Part shown: in pieces, positions 4,400 through 62,969 of the stretch
Numbering within the stretch: position 1 is the first letter of the stretch
How the letters are laid out: each line of letters begins with the position of its first letter
Origin: Ilyonectria destructans
Lineage: Eukaryota; Ascomycota; Sordariomycetes; Hypocreales; Nectriaceae
Assembly (NCBI GenBank): GCA_020740775.1
Contig: JAHEWK010000020.1
Span: forward strand, 806,001 to 870,000
Direction: 5' to 3'
DNA length: 64,000 nucleotides
Notes under the pieces: model-generated
The model's input: only the letters and a program-made list of their open reading frames with translations
The model's database searches: none
What the model was told of the DNA's origin: nothing
Made by a program: the position numbers and the translations under genes

Positions 4400-7300
4400 G
4401 CCGCCTTCCACAGAGAGTTAGCTTGACTTGCACGCATTTCTCCTCATGTAGCGCCAGCCCTACCTGCAACAGCAGGGTGTCACGCCAAAAGGCCTCTGGG
4501 TACCTGCAATGAGATGATTCGTTCCCGTCACACTGGCGAAGATGACTGAGGATCGTGACAACAAACACCTTGTAGGCGTCCTTTCGTTGCAACAAGATTC
4601 CCCACCACTCTCAATCCAGTCTTTTCCTGAGGTCATTAATCAATCCCCCTCCCAACTCTCCAGTCGTCTCTAAGAGGCGTTGGGACTTGCTATCCTTCCA
4701 CAAGTAGCACACCCTACCAGCCGCATACATGTTGAGCAGAAGCCTCAACTCGTCTCCCTGTTGTTTCTCTAGGATATCCTCGTAGCGGTGTTGTATCATG
4801 TGTATAATATCCCCAGTATTCTCCTTCCACAAGGTGAACCATTTCAAAAACTGTCGCAATTACCAGACCCTACTTTAGGGACCAGGTTCCCGACTATCGA
4901 ACATAGCATCATTTGTCCTGCTCTGGCTCGTCGTGCTGATGGCGGACAGACTAGATCCGTCCACCACGTTTTCACTGCTGCCTGAGGGACCTACGAGCCA
5001 CCGACCCCGGTGACATCACAGTATAACGGGTGACGACGAATCTACTCAAGATTCTCATGTAGCCCCTAGGGCTTGAATGCTTGCAAAACTCTAACTCTGT
5101 CCCGTGAACAACTTCGAAGCGCTTCATCCCGGCTGTCCTCGAATTCAGGTCTAACAGGGCACCAGATAGCACCATTTACGTTCAGGTTCATGGCAGTATA
5201 CCAAGAGCTACCTGCCCAAAAGGGCTGCTCATCATGTCTTGGTCATCATTCGGGCTGATCGCATACGTCTCCAATCATGCCTCCGGAAGCAACTTTCACT
5301 ATGGGTTCTGGAATACAGGCCGTTCGCCAAATAGCGTCATGAAAGACGCACCTTTGCAGAGTTGGACACGGTTTTATTTACTTTGATGCTCTAGATCACC
5401 CTCTATTGTACAGGTACCATCCATGTACTAGCCAGTCTCAGGACAAACTCATACGCCCCAAGTGCGATTACGGCTGCTGGGATTGGGCGCAACGGGTGTG
5501 GCGTAAGGCCATACAAACCGCTCCACTTTGAACTGGTCTACTCCGTACTGGTTTACTACCCTGCCTGCACTGGTCCAATTCGTCGTACCAGTTCATTCTA
5601 TTCGTTACTGATCGAGCCAGAGGTATGACTCGGCTCTTGTATTCGAGCAATGGTGACGGGTAAGATAGTGTGGCTGCAACATCATGATTGGAGTCTTCAA
5701 CGCCGGCGAATGTGTCCTGGTCACAAGAGAGCGGCCTAACATCTGTGTCGTGTGCGACCATCATTGCTTTGCATCGGCCACCTTATTTAGAATAAGGTAC
5801 ATTTGTGTGGCGCTTATCGGGAGGTCCTCCTCAATCAATCAACGCCGAACCATCCTCAAGCTTGCTCTTTTCCAATCCCTCAAATCTATCGTTGCTGAGT
5901 CGCAGACGAGAAAGTCTGGCACATTGCTGCAAAGCCTGCTTGAAGTGGTGCCACTGGCTTGCCAGAATGAGATTGGACAGAAGGCAGTTGTCCTCGATCC
6001 CCGACGGGAGACACCCGACATCTCACACTAACCCTTGTTCCCCAGCTTATTGACATGACATTTTGCGCGTTTACTCTGACAGCGGTGAAATCCAATATAC
6101 TTCATCGCTATTCTTTATGCCTTGGATGGCTATACGCTCGGTTCCCCCACCCGGCCTTTATGTTACGTCAAAGCACGAAGGCGAACGCGCCTTGCGTCAA
6201 TGAGATGCCGCGGATGCAAAGAATCTAATTTAAACCCACACTACAGAGGGGAACCGTTTCTGGCAGAAGAATGGATCGTTTGGGTGGGGTAGCACTTCCA
6301 GAGGTAGCAGGATTTGGGTAGGAAGCAGCCACTGTTGGAGGCTATGTTTGGATGACAAAGAGCCGTTTTTAGATGTTAAAGGAATGGAGTAGCCAGTTTT
6401 GGAGGCTGCATGGATGTGATGATGCGCATCCATTTCTGAAGGCAGCGGGGACTAGCTAGTTCTAGAGGTAGCAGGAATAGAACAGCCAGTTCTGGAGTTG
6501 AATGTAAGATGTGCGCTGGCTCGTGGCCGGACCCCAGAACGTCTGGAGACCGCAAAACGCACCAACAGAAATCCAATGGCCAAACATTTTGTTCCAGTTG
6601 CTGGAACCAAGTTCAAAGTCGGGTTCCAGCTGTTGTTGCGTGTCGGTCTCGTGAGAACGACAAAAACTTCTCACGAAAGGTCCAGTACTTCTCGTAGCTG
6701 TCCGAAGCTATGTTCTAGCGCATGCTAGTCAAATCTCTAATATATTTCTGCAGCAACTTGTTGCTGTCTAGCTTCTCATGTCCCTTCTTAACTGCCTCGA
6801 CGCGGTTAAAGATGAGGAGTAGCGAGTCCTGCAACGCCTTCGCATGCCTAGATCCGCAGGAAGAAACGTCAGTGAGCAGTTCCAAAGATGGCCACCCTCG
6901 GACACATCTAACGTTCACGGCAGATCCCATAGTCTTCACTAACCGGCGCAGTTCAGTGTGTATTTCACGCTCCAACGCTTCAACATCCTCGCTTGTCATC
7001 CGCTACGGAAGGCCGGAGGGATCAACTGGTCATAACCCCCCTGGCCTCACAGACCCTTGCCAATTGTCTCTTAGGTCGACCCTGGCGTGTGAGCCCATTC
7101 CTGCTTAGATAAATATCACTCTTGGCCACATACGCTGCTCCCAAAACAGCCTTACACTCTTTATCGTTCCTCCCACTTTCACTGAAAGTGCTTTGTATGC
7201 GTTGCCATTGGCCCATGACCCTTATAATACCCCGCACTTCACTTTCACCAGAAGGAGGCTTCACTATTAGTTAAATCCCGACTAGCTCTAAGAGCCGAAA

Positions 7301-46518: not shown

Positions 46519-47681
46519 TACGGGGGCCGCGTTACGGGGGCCGTGTGGCTGAGCCCTCCAAATCTGGCAATTGACCCATTCCTTTGGCATACACACTGCC
46601 ACTTCCAGTTGATGGCTGGTTTGCGTTCCAGTATTTACTCTCCAGCCATCAACCAGAAAAACATTTCACGACCATGTTCCTATCGTTGTAGCTGTCCGTG
46701 TCCTAATATAAATTCACTTTCACACTCGTCGGTACAGAGGAGCCATCCGCCAGAAACTCACAGCGTCATTTACCATAAGATTACAGGAAAACCCAATCTA
46801 TGTACACGGCACTGAGAGTAGTGGCAACAGCACTTCCCTTCCCCCTCCACGCAATCGCCAGAAACGCGCATCCCATGACCCATTCGACCCTGAGCTTTAC
46901 TACGGCGAAGGCGACGATGGTGCCTTATATAACCTTTTTGCGACATGGCCAGAGAACTACTTTAGTAGCCTTCCCAGACCACATGGAAGCCGCGGTATTG
47001 ACGAACCGTGGTGGGAACTGCGGCAGACGCAAATCTTCCTAGACGACTGTTTCCGCGGCCGCGGCAAGCGGCGATTATTCGTCTTAGCAATTCCAGACCC
47101 TGACAAGCTTGAAAGAGCGCCTGCGCGAGCAGGTGAAGTCAGAGGACGCCAGCGGCTACGCGAGAAGCATGGTTCGCTTTAAGTCTGCGTTGAAGTTTGC
47201 CCGAGAGCAAGCAAAGTCCGATACCCACTAGCTCTCGAGTTGGCCAAGCATTGCCAGAGCTTTGGCCCACGGTGAGTGGGAGATCAATGACGACGAGGAG
47301 CTGGAGCCTCCGTCGAAATACAAACGCCGAAGCTCCCGTAAACGGACTGCCACTTCGATGCCGTCGGCCGCGTTAAGTTTGGGTAGCAAGGCAAAGTGCG
47401 AAGATTGTATCAATGTGCGAGTGTAACAAGTCTATAGAAGCGTTGAGGAGGCAATGCAGAGCACCGTCTATAATACTGAAAGAGGCGAGCATTTCGTCAT
47501 AGGGCTGCTTGTGCAACTGAGGATCATTTAACCGGTTCTAGTTGTGCAAGGTCGTTGGTTTTCATAGAGCACAATGGTACAATAAATTTGTAATGAGAAG
47601 CTTGATTCCCTTTGGTAGTAAATCAGACGTCTTAATGGTGTGGCTGACGGACTAGTTAGCCACACGGCCCCCGTAACGCGG
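46519..47681. mobile_element. CTACGG-ended element with inverted termini, about 1.16 kb
   Basis: Perfect 24-bp inverted repeats at 46527-46550 and 47658-47681 (CCGCGTTACGGGGGCCGTGT...). The left side extends outward as CTACGGGGG at 46518-46526; the matching right extension is missing exactly where E1 begins (47685). Inside, an unopened frame from about 46798 to 47182 (DPELYYGEGDDGALYNLFAT, EPWWELRQTQIFLDD) looks protein-like but is of no known family. Terminal CTACGG links it to E1 and E2. Confidence 0.65.
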
Positions 47682-47684
47682 CGC

Positions 47685-47719
47685 TACGGAAGTCCATAGG
47701 GGGCACAGTTCCAAAACCC
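47685..47719 (+). repeat. E1 left terminal inverted repeat, 35 bp
   Basis: Exact reverse complement of 52603-52637. The E2 left end at 58988 agrees at 27 of 35 positions. Confidence 0.93.
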
Positions 47720-47895
47720 CCGGCCCTCTTTTTTTTTATCACTAGACTAACCCCAATGTGTATTTATCCTTCTGTTTAGCCGCATACGAGCCCGTATCGT
47801 AATTTCAATGAGAAAATTGCTTTACCGGTGTACAAGGGACCATCCATTTCCCATTGCCGGGCCAATTTAGTATATGGTGAAAGGGGTATAAGGTT

Positions 47896-47923
47896 GCGTA
47901 CGAGTTCGTACGAACTCGTACGC
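47896..47923. promoter_or_regulatory. 28-bp perfect palindrome upstream of E1 gene A
   Basis: Half-site GCGTACGAGTTCGT, perfectly mirrored, ending 42 bp before ATG 47966. A related ATACGAGCCCGTAT lies at 47784-47797. The position suggests an operator or transposase-binding site. Confidence 0.7.
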
Positions 47924-47965
47924 ACACTTTCGCTGCTCTCTATCAACTTTCCACCTTCTTTCAGT

Positions 47966-49102
47966 ATGGAGCCCGCTTCACCTCCTCAAACAGAGTACTG
48001 TCCATCAGCGCAACAACGTACTCGTCATGTGGATATCCGTACGAAATTTCCGGGGGCTGTTTATTGCCCGCATTGCGCTCAACGACTCCCTACGGCTCTA
48101 CACAATGCAGCCCCTATTTCGATCGACCTGACCGTTTTTTCACCTTTAACCCAACGGACCTCTACGACAAAGAACATTGCCTCACGGGGCATAATCACTA
48201 CTTCCTCTACAACTGTGCCAATGCCTGACACCTATCAGGCTTCGACTATGATGGCCGTACAGAACCGTCAGAGCAGTATCGCAGCCACACGGATCCGAAA
48301 GGACCCAGTCGTTGTCGAACTATCAGCAATCTTCTGGATTGGTGACGGCTATATCGATGATAGCATCCCAGGCATCACGATTCCAGTGTACAAGGGAATT
48401 CGGCACGCTGGAAAGCGTACTGGATCTGTTGAAGTCGTACTAGGGCGTAAGTTTTCATCCCATAGCTCAATGATCAGATTCATCGTCGAGCAATGCGATG
48501 AACGCCTCAAGGAGAAAGAGTGGCAAGTCGTTCATTCCGTATCAACAGTTGGCGCTACTTCTGGACCCGTATACTTCCCTAGTGGAGCGTACAATACCGT
48601 TACGCTAGGAGATCTATTCAGCCAGGGGAATATCACCGTTACAAAGCAACGTGATACAGCCAATCTCACTTTTTGGCTCTTCAACGAGGGACCCCGACCT
48701 GATGACGACTGTCAGAGGCCGTTGAGAGCCGCACGTGGCCGCAAAAGGGCTATTGATCACGGGCCTTCTGATATGGACTCGGATATGTCAACGCCAAGCC
48801 CTATCAAGCCCAAGGTTCCACGTACGGCAAAGTCAGGGCGCGTATCAACCAGTAAGGACGAATTCAAAGCCCCAGTGCTATCTCTGGTACCAATGAAGCT
48901 CGAAGCTCGAAGCCCCATCAAGACTGAAGTCAAGGATGAGGTTATCGCGGGGTGTATTACAGTCACAGATACAGCTTCGAACGATGCCGCACTGAGTGAT
49001 CCTTTTACGAGCGATATCGAACAGTCAGAAACACAGGGGGGTTCACCTGAGAAGAAGCTTCCTTTTCGAGCTGGGAGGGGGAAGAATAAGAATATAGATT
49101 AA
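47966..49102 (+). CDS. E1 gene A: zinc-motif protein with a psi-K-x-E cluster
   Basis: A 378-aa frame from ATG 47966. The N-terminus holds a C-H-C-C motif (Cys12, His21, Cys34, Cys37; YCPHC) likely to bind zinc. A conserved central body (residues about 105-250) contains WIGDGYIDDSIPGITIP and SMIRFIVEQCDERLKEKEW. Basic and proline patches follow (GRKRAID, KPKVPRTAKSGR), then MKLE, IKTE and VKDE at residues 310, 318 and 322: three psi-K-x-E sumoylation-consensus sites within 16 residues. The relative in E2 (59764-61134) has the zinc ligands at the same residues and four such sites starting at residue 311. It converges with the integrase gene, whose stop lies 45 bp away. No known family. A DNA-binding or chromatin-linked helper of transposition is my inference. 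Confidence 0.8.
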   Translation: MEPASPPQTEYCPSAQQRTRHVDIRTKFPGAVYCPHCAQRLPTALHNAAPISIDLTVFSPLTQRTSTTKNIASRGIITTSSTTVPMPDTYQASTMMAVQNRQSSIAATRIRKDPVVVELSAIFWIGDGYIDDSIPGITIPVYKGIRHAGKRTGSVEVVLGRKFSSHSSMIRFIVEQCDERLKEKEWQVVHSVSTVGATSGPVYFPSGAYNTVTLGDLFSQGNITVTKQRDTANLTFWLFNEGPRPDDDCQRPLRAARGRKRAIDHGPSDMDSDMSTPSPIKPKVPRTAKSGRVSTSKDEFKAPVLSLVPMKLEARSPIKTEVKDEVIAGCITVTDTASNDAALSDPFTSDIEQSETQGGSPEKKLPFRAGRGKNKNID

Positions 49103-49147
49103 TTTGAGTGCGAAATGGTTCAATCATGTACGTATTTAGTTATATGG

Positions 49148-50771
49148 TTAGTCCTCCTGCTCGTCAACATCATCAATCTCCTCTCCAATCTCATTTTTGA
49201 GCCTATCAAGCGTAGTGGCATCAATATCATTCGCTGCCAAATGATCTCGTACGCGGTCCAGTCCACCAGTAGGTATTGATAGTAGCTCTAGAGCAGGTGA
49301 TTCTTGATTGATAATATACTGCTGCAAATGCTGCCGTAAGAAGAGATATGTAGAAAGATGTGGCCGTTCTACTGGATCTTGCGGGTAGTCTTGACGGCTT
49401 TGGAGTATGCGATCGCAAATAGCTATCGTATGCTCAGGTAAGTAAGCGTCAAGGTCAATATGGTCTTCTGCGAAGATATTCTGAAGTGTATCTAGTCGTC
49501 CCTGAGGGATGACCTCTGCCCAGCTTCTGACTTGTCGGGCCTCGGGCTGAAAGTAAAGGTTCCATGGTTGCCCGGGAACAACATGTGGCCTGTTGCGCTG
49601 TTTACGAATGTAATGCACATTCCACATGTGTACGAAGTCGGCGAATTCCTCTCTCAAAATTGGCATAAAGATATAAAGCATCGCAATACGGTCGGGTACG
49701 GAATCATCCGAGAAATATGAAAGTCCCGTGATTTCAGAGAAATACTCCTAAGAATACATCAATACGCCATCATAAATAAAGATATCAGTCTATACTTACC
49801 CGCCAGAACTTAGCCCTGCCTCGACTTAGCCGAAGCCACCAGCTTTCAATCTTCTGATTATTCGTGCTCTTGCCGTAGGCCCAACAGTCTTGGAAGCGCA
49901 CGTCTTGCCGAATACTATCCCGTACACGCACGCGTTCTTTCGAAAGGTAGAAATGTGCTCCAGCCATTAGAATTGTCTCTCGGCCGCGGTCTGAACGGAT
50001 GATATTGGGCATTGTTTGGCGTTCTGAAAGTACGTGAAGGTATTGCGCAACAACACTCCGTGACGTATTGGCTGATATGCCAATATAAAACCACGTAATA
50101 AACCGTGAGTATACGTCAATTGAAGCGTAAATCTCAAAGCCCCAAGCCTTCAATTTATCATAGGCATCAAGAGACCACATGAAGTCAGGGCCAGGGGCTG
50201 TCCATCCACCTCGGCGATATCGCATCGTATTCCAACGTTCGGTAATACTTCCAGGATAAAACTCACGAAAGCCTTCGTACAGCGCCCGGCGACTGAGTAC
50301 GAGTCCAGCTCGACGGACCTTTGCGTAGAGATACGTACGGCCAAAGTCTTTAAGCTTAGTGCTCTGTTCGGACTCGCTTTCAAAGAAACGGCGCAATTCG
50401 CGTAGGCTTTCTGATATCTGCTCGGGGTCTTGCCGGCGCCAAAGCCCAAGGTCCCGGCGTATGCGTTCAAGTCCAGTCTTCGTGATAATAAAGCCGTCAG
50501 AATGAAGCTTCAGAAGCATAAAGTGATCATTCAAGACCTTATTAAAGAATAAATCTTTAATATGCTGACGAAGGTGTTCTGAGTCTTTGGTGTATTGTTT
50601 GACTGAGATATTCCAACTTTTGAGGCTGCAATACACGGTCGTACGTCCCACTATGACGTGGAAATGCTTATTAAGGCGCGTGACGATTTGATCGTATGTA
50701 AGATAGTCATCATTCTTCCATTGTTGAATTTGTATGCGAAATGAAGATAAGTCAATCGAAGGGCGGCCCAT
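49148..50771 (-). CDS. E1 gene B: DDE integrase-core protein, 2 exons
   Basis: Exon 1 is 50771-49800 and exon 2 49747-49148; the 52-bp intron (GTAAGT ... CTTAG) joins in phase 0, giving 523 aa. The N-terminal half is a helical, HTH-like region (YDQIVTRLNKHFHVIVGRTTVY and a second similar block near residue 95). The catalytic core reads WSLDAYDKLKAWGFEIYASID, then IRSDRGRET and NNQKIESWW: putative triad Asp202, Asp261, Glu309 of the retroviral-integrase fold. After the intron, IFMPILREEFADFVHMWN ... RNRPHVVPGQPWNLY is the conserved C-terminal part of these fungal integrase-like proteins. The ATG at 50771 was chosen because the open extension upstream only has TTG. Probably the enzyme that moves E1. 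All parts are intact. Confidence 0.88.
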
Positions 50772-51289
50772 TGCGTTGACTTGCGGGCTCGTATGAGGCC
50801 GTGACGAGAAGTACGGGCTCGTACTAAAAATCGAAAATTCCAGCTTTGGATTCAATCGGGGGCTGGAAATCTTTTTCGCATGGCCGCGTACGTGGCCGTA
50901 CGAGAGCGTAATCTTAATTTTTGAGCTAGAGCCTAATTAGGCAATTCAGGGGCAAAGCTACTAGTGGTCGTTAGTAATCATACAATATACAACCAGACTC
51001 TACCCAGCAATACTCCCCAGATTTTAAGGCAAATATATTACATCTTCCTCACATTAAAAACAATTAAAGACTAAAGTAAATTTCATTTCAGGCCCTAGCT
51101 AGCAATTAGGTATTATAATGCTCTGTATGCCTCTTGCAGTCGTACGCAAAAGTTTCGTTTATATTTTTGCTTAGATTACAAAAAGAAATTTTACCTTAGA
51201 ATCTCAGAACAGGGGTGGTAGGAAATAACTAAGTAGACTAGGAAAAGGGTCGGTACGAGCTCGTATTCTCATGTAAAGGGTGATATACC
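50772..51289. promoter_or_regulatory. E1 spacer with GTACG-type palindromes
   Basis: Between genes B and C. AGTACGGGCTCGTACT (50810-50825), CGTACGTGGCCGTACG (about 50887-50902) and the perfect TACGAGCTCGTA (51254-51265) lie in an otherwise AT-rich spacer. The first two are 40-130 bp upstream of the integrase start, so may control it or bind the transposase. Confidence 0.55.
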
Positions 51290-52116
51290 TCAGTCTTTCC
51301 TCAAAGGGGTGGCCCCCTTCTTTCTCTTCTTCTTGTCAGCAGCATCCTTAAAGAACTTAGACATCTTCAAGAGCGTCTTGCGGTCAAAGTCCTCCATCGG
51401 GTCCGTACTGTCACTATTAGAGTCGAAGTCATCGGCCTTGCGCTTGGTGCTTTGCTTGCCTACTACTAATTAGTACTGTATATAGGTGCGTAAGTGTAAG
51501 TACTCACCGAGAGAACATGCCTGGCTAGAACGGTTCCAGTCGCAATTGGCACAAGCATGCAGGTAAGTGTCAGAGACAATACACTTGTTGAAGGAGCCGT
51601 TTTGGCCCGTACACTTGTTGCAGCGCTCCGTATCCTCACGTTCGTCACCGTACAGGTGGCGGAGCATAGTATCACAATTCTGACTGCCGCGAAAGTTAAG
51701 GACAGGGGCGGTCTTCTTCATAGACTTGCTGTCAGTCTTATAGTTGAGCTCAAGCAGACGTACTTCCTGATACAAGTTAGTACGAACTAGTACGCTGATC
51801 TGCGGGTATAAACCTTAGTGGAGTCAATAGCAGCAAAACCCTTCTTACTGCTACCCTTCAGAGCATTCATCAGAGCCCAAACGGTAAGATCCGGGTTCTC
51901 AGTGGGCTGTTCGCCCTTGTATGTGAACGTATAAGTATCGATCTCCAGCACTTCCTTAGGCAGCTGGCCGAATTTTTCCTCTCCAAAATCCTCACGTAGG
52001 AGGTCGATAGCAGCCTTACGAAGCAGATTGTCCTGTTTCTCTTTTTCCTTTTCGAGTCGCTCTCTCTCCTTCTCCGCCTCCTTGTCCTTGTCACCCTTCT
52101 TGCGAGCGCCGGCCAT
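51290..52116 (-). CDS. E1 gene C: cysteine-rich DUF3716-like protein, 3 exons
   Basis: Exons 52116-51814, 51766-51508 and 51465-51290 join in frame to give 245 aa. The N-terminus is a charged coiled coil (KEKEKQDNLLRKAAIDLLRED). The middle carries C-x2-C-x9-C-x9-C-x2-C-x8-C (RCNKC, FNKC, HACANC, ACSL), which matches the arrangement of the fungal DUF3716 zinc-binding domain. The C-terminus is rich in Lys and Asp (TKRKADDFDSNSDSTD; KKKRKKG), with a likely nuclear signal. The third acceptor could also be 3 bases later, changing one residue. DUF3716 has no known function. Here it travels in a transposon, next to the integrase, and a gene with a like cysteine pattern lies beside the E2 integrase. 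Upstream motifs CGTACGGGCGCGTACG lie about 50 bp before the start. Confidence 0.7.
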
Positions 52117-52602
52117 GATGGGCAATCTGTAGTCGTACGAAGCCGAAGTGTGTCGAATCTGCTTACGTACGGGCGCGTACGGAGATGCATCGCGTCTGGA
52201 AGGCTTGTGGGGTTCCTGCCTGGGTAACGGTTAGCCTGGGTCAGTACGTACTGCGGAAAATCGTAGGGCGCGTGGGTCCGCCAATATGGGCAAAATGCAT
52301 ATCAAAATGTAGCACGTAACCATGCGATATCGTAGCTGATTGAACGCCCACGTAAAGCGCATGGCGGTGGCGTTATTTTGATGCAAAAGAAGGCTATTCT
52401 TACCTTCAAATTGTAGTTGAAGAAGGAAGAAGAAAGGAAAGAGACCCTCGTAGCCTGTTGTGAGGAGAATTAGGCGTGCGCACGTGACTAGCTGGCCATG
52501 AATGCAAGTTGATTTTGGATGACTAAGCGATTTGAGGGAGCGATTATGCTTCAAACGGGGCCGCACGGTGGGTGTGCCCCTACCCAAAAACAACCACAAA
52601 TT

Positions 52603-52637
52603 GGGTTTTGGAACTGTGCCCCCTATGGACTTCCGTA
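52603..52637 (-). repeat. E1 right terminal inverted repeat, 35 bp
   Basis: Exact reverse complement of 47685-47719. Confidence 0.93.
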
Positions 52638-53734
52638 CCTGGCACGAATGGCCGGGGATATTCCGTAGTGTTGAGTTTGGAGAACGTGGCCAATAACTTC
52701 GCTGATCGTTCGAACGCCCCACGTTTCTCAACCAGCAAGGTCCATTTGCAAATCCCATTCCCCGAGCCTGAATGATCAGTCTGCGGTACAAGCGAGACGG
52801 CCTTGGCGCCACCATTTTTCCAGAGTTTGCGCTACGGCTAGCTGCTCGATTCGCTTCGAGTTCGACTGTGGCGAGACTCAAGGGCTCAAGTACACCTACG
52901 ACCCTGCAGTGCATGACTCGAAGCGTGTCAGCCGCCAAGCTCGGATGGCGGGGAGATCCTGCACGGAACATGTCCCCTTAGATCACTTAATTTGCGTCCG
53001 AAGCTACTTGCAGTTTCTGTCAGAACGCGCCCAAAGAGCATTCCAGATACTCGCGAAAATGTGGCAGTGTAATTTCAAGCAATACAACGACAAGGTTACT
53101 CGCATAGACCAACAAGCACGGATACCCCAATCATTGACATCCTTCCTCGTCTGCGCTGCCAGCACCTTCCAGCGCTCACCATCTTGGAGGGAGCGGCAAT
53201 GTAGAAGTGACAGGTTGGTTGACAAGGGTCTCAGAGCGTGACCAGGCCACGACAGTCCAGGTGGGGGCCTCCCAAGCCGGCGGCCATCGCGACGGCCCTT
53301 GAACAATATAATTTCTCGAGGCTGTCTTCGCTCGTGGGAACCGCACACGGTTTGCCAGCAGGAGATTGGTTCGGCTGAAGTTTCCGTGCATGGCTGACAG
53401 CTTTCATGCATGTCTTGAATCATGGACGAGAGCCATCCGGGCTGCAAGCACTTGCGAAACCAAGCGAACTTTTTCGTGCTTCAGGCCCATTCCTATGTGA
53501 CTTTTCCCTCATGGATGGGATCCCATTGCTGTTGATGAAAGAATACCTCGTTCATAAATCGCCTTGCACAAAGTCCGTTCATAAGCACTTTTCTCTCCTT
53601 TTTCCCGGCCGAGGTGTCCTTGCATCTGCGTTTGTTTGATCACTTCAATCTTCCATCTCAGGTTTCTCCAAATTTGGCCATTTTCCTCTTCAGGTTATCC
53701 TGCTCTCCTCTGCAACCTCCAATTGCCGCCCAAT
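52638..53734. other. Region between E1 and the HAK gene
   Basis: No supported gene in 1.1 kb. Overlapping open frames on both strands at 52770-53450 are without motifs. The last 250 bp, with CT-rich text (53590-53720), are the likely promoter and leader of the transporter gene. Confidence 0.45.
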
Positions 53735-61246: not shown

Positions 61247-62969
61247 CTACCCATCAGAGGTGCCAGCGTCCTCCTCGTCATCACTTATTCCCTCAATGTC
61301 ATTTCCATTTTCGTCTTCAACGCCAAGTTCAACAAGCGGCTGTTCTGCTGGTTCCATATCTGCAAGCTCCTCTTGATGGGCTTGATTTGCTCGTGCAAGT
61401 AGTGCTTCCTATACATAGTTAACTGGATACTTTAATACGCAGATAGACATAGCATCTTACATATTCGGTAACTCCCCCGGTCGGTGCTCTACGGTAGGCT
61501 AGCATAGGCCGTTATCCACTCTCTATGTGCCGAATGATCCTATCGCGAAGGGCAAGGTAGAAGCGCTTCAATAGGCGCAACTTGTCAGGCTCCTGGTGAT
61601 CGCCGAGGACTACATTATGGTAATCCATTTCGTTAAGAACGTCGCGGCACTATTCCTTTGTCTCTGGCTCAAGACATGTGCTGATGTCGATGCCAGCCAG
61701 TGGCTGTGCCAGCTCGCCTAGAACTGTACGGTCGATAGGGATTCCCCAATTGCAAGCCTTACTTAGGTCAGGGTAATGGTAATTCATCCAAGGTTGGCCG
61801 TGCACAACATGAGGCCGGTTCTTCTGAAGGCGAATTTTATGTAGATTCCACGCCTCTACGAAATCGAAGAGCTCTTAACGCAGCACATCTTCGAAGACAG
61901 CGTAGATAGCAATCTGGTCCTCGAGCATATCGCCGTCAAAGTCCCCATCTCTGGCAAGCTCCCCAAAGTAGTCCACCCACTGCCGTGAAGAGACGTGAAG
62001 CATGCTCTCCCACCACTTCTCGATCTTAACGTTCTTCGTACTCGGTGCCGCCTTATAGGAATCCTTCATCCGCTTGCCCTGCTGGAAGACTTGGCCATTC
62101 CATTCCACGCGCCCACCAGCAGCTAAGGCAAAGTTCCAATGGGCTGCTGCGACCAGTGGCGTTTCGCTACCCCGGTCTGCCTGCAAGTACCATAGGCGCA
62201 AGCCATAAGCGTCGCATGCAGCCAAATACTGCTTCAACACACTCAAGGCGGTGCTGGCTGAGTGGCCAAGGTAGAACCAGACAATATTGCGGGAGTATGC
62301 ATCAATCGCGGCGTATATCTCGAAACCGTATGCCTTCAGCTTGTTATGGCCGTCAATGCACCACCGGTAGTTCGGCCCCGGGACGAGGAACTGCCCTTCC
62401 TTCCTTCGCATCATCCTTCGGCGCATCTCGACATCGTTTGGGAACATGACTTTGTACATTTCAAACAGGGGATCCCTGGGTACCCAAAGCTGCTGTTGTT
62501 GGCGTAGATATGACTGGAGAAACCTTCGACCGTATCCTGCAATGGCATTAGATCGTTGAGCCATCTCGACAATAACTTGCTCTGTCTTCTCCAACAAAGC
62601 AAGGCGCTCCTCGTCGCTGTTTATGCGACGTAGCCAGCGACGGTCCCGGTGGAGTCTGATGCGTTTCAAACCTCTTTTAGTGATAGGCCAGCCTTGCCTC
62701 TGAAGAACACTCAAGGTCTGCTTCTCGGTAAGGCCAACACGGAAGATAAGGTCGTGAATAGCTTCCATGAGCTCTGGAGTCTCAATAGTGCGTGATTGTT
62801 GACGCGGAAGTCCCCAGCTGGCCACCCGCCGCGAGATTGTGCTAAGGTTGACAGCGACATTGTAATGTTTCCACAGCTTATATCTGATCTGGCTTCGCGA
62901 GACGCCATTAAGGTACAGCAAGCTGACATAGTCGCGATATTGATCGATTGGGTTGGGTGGCCGAGCCAT
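61247..62969 (-). pseudogene. E2 gene B: DDE integrase relative with three stops
   Basis: ATG 62969; exon 1 extends to 61461 and exon 2 is 61408-61247, with a 52-bp intron (GTAAGA ... TATAG) in phase 0, together 556 sense positions long. Stops lie at 61875-61877 (TAA), 61650-61652 (TAG) and 61512-61514 (TAA). The catalytic core is complete: RWCIDGHNKLKAYGFEIYAAID, QADRGSET and TKNVKIEKWW give Asp206, Asp265 and Glu317, parallel to E1. After the first stop, FVEAWNLHKIRLQKNRPHVV matches the E1 C-terminal region, showing that the frame once continued. All three stops fit CAA or CAG changed at CpA. The N-terminus (YVSLLYLNGVSRSQIRYKLWK) is a clear helix-turn-helix of the resolvase/transposase kind. 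Not functional as read. Confidence 0.85.

Follow-up and report, generated by a model that had tools for sequence, protein, structure and literature searches.

E1, a three-gene transposon of Ilyonectria destructans with IS3EU-like features and with exchanged halves among its assembled copies

The E1 locus and its three proteins

We analyzed a 64,000-nucleotide stretch of the genome of the fungus Ilyonectria destructans (contig JAHEWK010000020.1, positions 806,001 to 870,000 of the forward strand; hereafter the window), in which positions 47685 to 52637 are occupied by a transposable element, E1. The original prediction, made from the letters of this stretch, had described a unit with exact inverted ends enclosing three genes. 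The terminal inverted repeats (TIRs) proved to be complementary at all 35 positions and form the longest of seven inverted pairs reported in 47400-52900. Between them, gene A (+ strand) and genes B and C (both − strand) were confirmed; B encodes a protein of 523 amino acids and contains a single inferred intron, and C, with two inferred introns, encodes 243-245 amino acids. The introns were placed from GT..AG sites, and exon 3 of gene C has three possible in-frame acceptors. The features of the locus are as follows.

47680..47684, + strand: left flank of E1, GGCGC, for which a partner was not found among the 11 copies described below
47685..47719, + strand: left TIR (TACGG...), 35/35 complementary to the right end, found in 11 full copies
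47966..49102, + strand: gene A, one exon, 378 amino acids, no Pfam family, zinc-like pattern C12-H21-C34-C37
49148..49747, − strand: gene B, exon 2 and stop
49748..49799, − strand: gene B, inferred intron of 52 nucleotides, GT..AG
49800..50771, − strand: gene B, exon 1, with the N-terminal part of the transposase and most of the rva_4/rve core (D202, D261, E309)
51290..51459, − strand: gene C, exon 3 and stop (243-amino-acid model; acceptor uncertain by 3-6 nucleotides)
51508..51766, − strand: gene C, exon 2, with the DUF3716 (PF12511) cysteine domain
51814..52116, − strand: gene C, exon 1
52603..52637, − strand: right TIR (...CCGTA), 35/35 pairing with the left end, found in 11 full copies
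52638..52642, + strand: target duplication CCTGG at the right end of E1, whose partner flanks the left end of copy L016 and not that of E1

Protein B matched the Pfam family rva_4 (PF24764, 5.4e-21) and, below the cut-off of the latter family, rve (6.7e-5). The predicted aspartate-aspartate-glutamate (DDE) triad, D202, D261 and E309 (spacings 58 and 47), held up in an alignment of B with 13 of its 31 homologues (14 rows): counting the rows in which the column is present, the residues are conserved in 14/14, 12/12 and 13/13, respectively. D261 is missing from two Fusarium gene models and E309 from one, because that stretch is absent from the models. Homologues of B, at 35-60% identity, are named also from Fusarium and other fungi. 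The similarity of B to the prokaryotic IS3 transposase model NF033516 was below the curated cut-off (0.0011; 18.3 of 160 bits), and three of four homologues scanned gave values of 2e-6, 2e-4 and 0.0045, with no match for the fourth. Residues 1-201 of B include one cysteine and no CxxC, and the HHCC domain is not present. The sole match of B in the PDB, obtained in a profile search, was a weak one to TnsB of Tn7 (E 0.018).

Protein A had no Pfam match. Its residues C12, H21, C34 and C37 are invariant in all seven aligned sequences, and it is 97% identical to a protein of Ilyonectria robusta, in which homologues of A and B probably share one contig (442,315 bp). A sequence search of the PDB with A gave only weak matches (E ≥0.09), and its structure predicted from a three-sequence alignment, with a mean predicted local distance difference test (pLDDT) score of 31.6, was useless. 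Protein C matched DUF3716 (1.3e-10) and has six homologues, named from Ilyonectria and Dactylonectria. Five cysteines (C144, C147, C166, C169 and C178 in the numbering of the homologue P0033) are invariant in 8/8 DUF3716 proteins, in an alignment made without E1's own C. A sequence search of the PDB with the C homologues returned no matches; the best structural model of P0033 (six sequences) had a pLDDT of 71.2, the four others 43-52, and its single PDB match had an E value of 8.0. The conserved cysteine and histidine patterns suggest that both A and C bind zinc.

All three proteins are under purifying selection. Between E1 and its relative L027 (described below), nonsynonymous (dN) and synonymous (dS) divergence was 0.315 and 1.01 for A, 0.152 and 0.95 for B, and 0.315 and 0.98 for C, that is, ratios of approximately 0.31, 0.16 and 0.32; these Nei-Gojobori values are rough, with dS near 1, and dS against L028 is saturated.

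Copies, target duplications and exchanged halves

When the host genome (71.7 Mb in 74 contigs) was searched with the first 100 bp at the left of E1, 26 matches were obtained. Eleven copies, the window copy among them, have both perfect 35-bp ends; further matches are partial or lone ends. The structure of E1 is therefore not a product of chance, and the many copies with the same three genes that had been anticipated do exist. By BLAST, the identity of the ten other copies (L009 to L018) to the window copy is 95.6-99.6%; L011 and L012 match it in two pieces (99.4 and 98.7%). Nine of the eleven, including the window copy, are mutually 98.8-100% identical, while L017 and L018 stand further apart, with 95.6-97.6% identity to the other copies. 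L011 and L012 have in common an insertion of approximately 190 bp at element position ~3297, with a 12-bp overlap of the flanking matches. They are identical to each other and lie at different sites with different duplications, so the insertion variant probably moved as such.

The flanks of all copies were oriented alike and compared for exact left/right matches. Eight duplications were found; five are 5 bp long and three are 6 bp long. Three copies carry a duplication of their own: L011 (CTAAC), L012 (ATTGG) and L013 (AATAGT). The other five join the left flank of one copy with the right flank of another: CCCGTG (L010-left with L014-right), CCAGTG (L014-left with L010-right), AACAG (L015-left with L016-right), CCTGG (L016-left with window-right) and CCGCC (L009-left with L015-right). 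Random offsets, drawn 20,000 times, gave on average 0.12 matches of 5 bp (maximum 4) and 0.03 of 6 bp (maximum 2), against the five and three observed. For the left flank of the window copy, the right flank of L009 and both flanks of L017 and L018, a partner was not found among the 11 copies.

A search of the same genome for six joins revealed uninterrupted empty sites for four of the five cross pairs. The CCTGG site is present in contig C19 (98% over 220 bp), the CCAGTG site in C47 (100% over 220 bp) and in C19 and C22 (97%), and the CCCGTG site in C26 (80%). The AACAG site lies inside a repeat, its junction being spanned by 34 of 40 matches (the best 99% over 147 bp). No empty site was found in this genome for the L009/L015 pair or for L013, which has its own duplication. 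For the six empty sites that were fetched, the alignment score was highest on removal of precisely 5 bp for CCTGG and AACAG and of precisely 6 bp for CCAGTG and CCCGTG, and the E1 family therefore makes both lengths. These sites bear out the view of E1 as a mobile unit. The original prediction had named empty sites in related strains and constant duplications as support; the empty sites were found elsewhere in the same genome, and the duplications have two lengths.

The copies of E1 have exchanged halves in the assembly, as is also seen from single-nucleotide polymorphisms (SNPs). At informative SNPs, L013, L014 and L016 are of type 1, and L009, L011 and L012 of type 2. Three copies are mosaics: the window copy is of type 2 up to element position 2512 and of type 1 from 2749, L015 is of type 1 up to 1211 and of type 2 from 1325, and L010 is of type 1 with a patch of type 2 at ~1325-1827. 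The switch of the window copy lies here:

50196..50433, no strand: interval in which SNP type 2, on the left, gives way to type 1, on the right (element positions 2512-2749)

When halves were re-paired by their duplications, pure types were restored in the three pairs involving the window copy, L009, L015 and L016: L016-left with window-right gives type 1, L015-left with L016-right type 1, and L009-left with L015-right type 2. The SNPs do not address the exchange between L010 and L014, because both copies are of type 1; the patch in L010 remains.

There are two ways in which these exchanges could have arisen, (i) real translocation and inversion or (ii) assembly chimerism, and the data cannot separate them. 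L010 and L014 (contigs C38 and C16) look like the products of a reciprocal translocation. L015 and L016 are inverted to each other on the same contig, approximately 145 kb apart, so that reversing an inversion would leave one copy flanked by AACAG on either side. The exchanges may be real rearrangements of host chromosomes. The breakpoints of the window copy (2512-2749) and of L015 (1211-1325) are not reciprocal, and the complementary switch occurs in no copy, which indicates that more events, gene conversion or assembly chimerism were involved. That the swapped duplications are chimeras formed by the assembly inside a 5-kb, near-identical repeat is a substantial possibility, which we put distinctly short of even odds. 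It is favoured by the non-reciprocal breakpoints and by the fact that an assembly of 74 contigs was judged from the contigs without reads. It fits poorly with the three copies that retain their own duplication, with the double switch of L010, of the kind that gene conversion would produce, and with Styx, an IS3EU-related element for which likely non-allelic recombination and a translocation are reported (PMC10853768).

Related elements and the affiliation of E1

Searches of the same genome, in which matches were counted exon by exon and are lower bounds, gave at least 89 matches to B, 45 to A, 97 to C, 162 to rva_4 and 59 to DUF3716. Five related elements, L027 to L031, encode transposases 76, 62, 46, 35 and 41% identical to B of E1 (first or sole piece), and have TACGG..CCGTA ends of 33-40 bp. 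Such ends also occur in L032, L033 and L040, and the TIRs of L027-L033 measure 33-42 bp. Duplications of 5 or 6 bp flank five of these eight loci: ATCTC in L027, CGTCC in L028, CACGTG in L030, GGTATC in L031 and GACGTG in L040; L029 has none.

Genes A, B and C are all present in L027-L031 (5/5); in each, A and B converge, and a C runs in the direction of B. The five loci were picked partly for C matches near B matches, and the presence of C is in this respect not an unbiased sample. Gene A is weak in L030 (E ~4e-6) and L031 (E ~2e-6), and in L029 it was revealed by profile comparison alone (probability 98.4%). L029 (852-6139) contains two different DUF3716 genes, one near each end. Genome-wide, 48 of the 59 DUF3716 matches lie within 4 kb of a listed transposase, in stretches that make up 1.3% of the genome, the copies not being independent. 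The same holds for 25 of 38 A loci; among the 13 that remain, 11 contain a common 196-amino-acid open frame and resemble a short family of 1.6 kb. This count used a partial transposase list, all 59 DUF3716 positions and 38 of the 45 A matches, the seven left out being further pieces of listed genes.

Two of the 1.6-kb elements were fetched (L032, 914-2526, and L033, 731-2346); they have TIRs of 42 bp with two mismatches, and no flank duplication was found in either. A separate transposon composed of A and C was considered for them and rejected. Because both genes read inwards from the ends and their 5' parts alone match, L032 and L033 look like non-autonomous internal-deletion derivatives that keep the 5' parts of A and C. 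Nine more loci of this kind are present among the A matches. Genes A and C thus do not occur mostly apart from the integrase or the ends, as they might have done had the proposed unit been spurious.

The window itself holds two further traces of such elements. At 61815-62390 (− strand) there is a second rva_4 transposase core with one internal stop, and hence probably a decayed relative. An isolated end at 7004-7040 (+ strand) has the same sequence as the 37-bp TIR of the L028 family; apart from those of E1, the window showed no opposite end of the TACGGAAG type.

The original prediction knew of no named superfamily with this gene set. This no longer stands, as the printed marks of IS3EU fit E1, and Styx is a multi-gene relative of IS3EU. 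According to the published descriptions, complete IS3EU families invariably end in TA..TA, usually make 6-bp duplications and lack an HHCC domain (PMC10045372), and the rust-fungus IS3EU families that are TET+ show duplications of 6 bp, TIRs exceeding 30 bp, TAYGG..CCRTA ends, and an alpha-kinase and a TET/JBP gene (PMC12730594). IS3EU is given as the commonest DNA transposon of Colletotrichum lupini (PMC11645255). Measured against these descriptions, E1 has TA..TA termini, TACGG..CCGTA tips that fit the rust-fungus consensus, TIRs of 35 bp, an IS3-like DDE core, no HHCC, and extra genes as in fungal IS3EU members. Part of its duplications are 6 bp, with 5-bp ones as common, and its accessory genes are A and a DUF3716 gene in place of alpha-kinase and TET/JBP.

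Styx of Zymoseptoria (PMC10853768) resembles E1 in several respects: its transposase is of the integrase type and related to IS3EU, it has TIRs and duplications of 6 bp, its accessory genes contain zinc motifs (GATA and CCHC proteins), and it is reported near translocation breakpoints; it differs in its size of 7,927 bp and its four open reading frames, which include DUF3577, and two of its genes are said to be confined to Zymoseptoria. Among the other groups described in PMC10045372, Ginger1, with 4-bp duplications and an HHCC domain, and IS481EU, with duplications of about 4, 15 or 25 bp and TG..CA termini, are ruled out by the 5-6-bp duplications of E1, its lack of HHCC and its TA..TA ends. 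For Ginger2, duplications of 4 or 5 bp are described, and E1 makes both 5- and 6-bp ones. Prokaryotic IS3/IS481 elements are similar in the core of B (NF033516), but E1 falls far under the IS3 cut-off and has inferred introns, a longer protein and two accessory genes.

We conclude that E1 represents a new family of the known IS3EU superfamily: a young, presumably autonomous DNA transposon with A and C as conserved partners, whose near-identical copies appear to have recombined (probability roughly 0.9). Several observations weigh against this conclusion. A 1-bp deletion splits gene A in 5 of the 11 copies, and two of these, L013 and L016, are 100% identical at different sites, so that spread does not require a full-length A supplied by the copy itself. 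Gene C was seen in none of three related elements (L040-L042) fetched afterwards as lacking a nearby C match; L041 and L042 yielded no TIR and no convincing A or C. L040 (2632-6208, 3.6 kb) has two genes, B and an A-like open reading frame (E 5e-5), and no C; its transposase was among 15 equal-scoring matches in the B search of the genome. Eleven of the 59 DUF3716 matches lie away from listed transposases, and 5 of 8 E1 duplications are 5 bp long, where those of IS3EU are "usually" 6 bp. Finally, the placement rests on printed marks and IS3-like similarity and not on a tree, because the comparison was made without the IS3EU sequences of Repbase.

The 5-bp duplications would also suit a distinct, unnamed superfamily that converged with IS3EU at the ends only, as would the A and DUF3716 gene set, which we did not find described for IS3EU in the literature passages searched (Repbase and subscription papers lay outside them). 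We consider such a superfamily highly improbable, since termini, tips, TIR length, lack of HHCC and core all match the IS3EU description, and 6-bp duplications occur in part of the E1 copies and in L030, L031 and L040.

Roles of the accessory proteins and significance

E1 does bring two accessory proteins along, as had been suggested, but their recurrence and a dN below dS give A and C the look of components of the element and not of passengers. Captured host genes, carried like the TET/JBP genes of rust-fungus IS3EU, could explain the 11 DUF3716 matches away from listed transposases, one of which lies in a 920-amino-acid open frame (C4:1035133). We nevertheless regard capture as unlikely: A and C recur, arranged alike, in five further families whose transposases are as little as ~35% identical (in the selection-biased sample above), dN is below dS for all three genes, and the two-gene family L040 has an A-like protein.

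In the mechanism that we propose for E1 as an IS3EU transposon, protein B would recognize the TIRs via an N-terminal helix-turn-helix (suggested by its sequence and by a Clr5 match in a homologue), cut at the TA..TA tips with the DDE site, and insert E1 into a target site cleaved with a stagger of 5 or 6 bp. A and C would act as element-encoded DNA-binding partners or regulators, not as cargo. After insertion, near-identical copies would recombine, so that several of them join the flanks of two different insertions.

Candidate operators are provided by palindromes of the form TACG-N4-CGTA, eight of which are present in E1, all outside coding exons and seven within ~200 bp upstream of A, B or C.

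47785..47920, no strand: three palindromes upstream of gene A (starts 47785, 47899, 47909)
50812..50910, no strand: three palindromes upstream of gene B (starts 50812, 50889, 50899)
51254..51265, no strand: palindrome just downstream of gene C
52168..52179, no strand: palindrome upstream of gene C

The remaining 59 kb of the window contain none, and each of 200 shuffles gave at most one (mean 0.065). Elsewhere, L027 has three, L028, L030 and L031 one each, and L029, L032 and L033 none; that of L028 and one of L027 fall inside gene B. The half-site GTACG/CGTAC has a density of 8.4-11.5 per kb in E1, L027, L030 and L031, 0.6-1.5 in L028 and L029, and is absent from L032; 5-kb stretches elsewhere in the window average 0.98 per kb (maximum 2.6). 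In E1 (17.2 versus 7.3 per kb) and L027 it is more frequent outside genes than inside them, but not in L030 and L031, whose gene borders in this count are partial. Four families thus show an enrichment of ~10-fold that L028, L029 and L032 lack, even though L030 and L031 are more distant from E1 than L028 is. Neighbouring sites in E1 are frequently spaced by 9-10 or 20-21 bp. Counting 5- and 6-mers under a Markov model proved uninformative. That A, C or B might bind these palindromes is put forward purely as an idea.

A broader hypothesis, which we advance tentatively and would place a little below even odds, is that fungal IS3EU elements of the E1 clade are three-component systems, composed of a DDE transposase and the zinc proteins A and C, in which A and C would bind CGTACG-type palindromes upstream of all three E1 genes, giving DUF3716 its first function, and that recombination between E1 copies rebuilt host chromosomes several times very recently. 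The name DUF3716 occurs in no paper of the literature library searched, in which the identifier PF12511 does occur, in one paper.

These results offer a testable role, as transposition partner or regulator, for DUF3716 and for A, a protein family without a Pfam model. They document an IS3EU family that was active recently and that has exact empty sites and duplications of both 5 and 6 bp, in which mismatched target duplications across copies provide a simple marker of which copies broke and rejoined, whether in the chromosomes or in the assembly.

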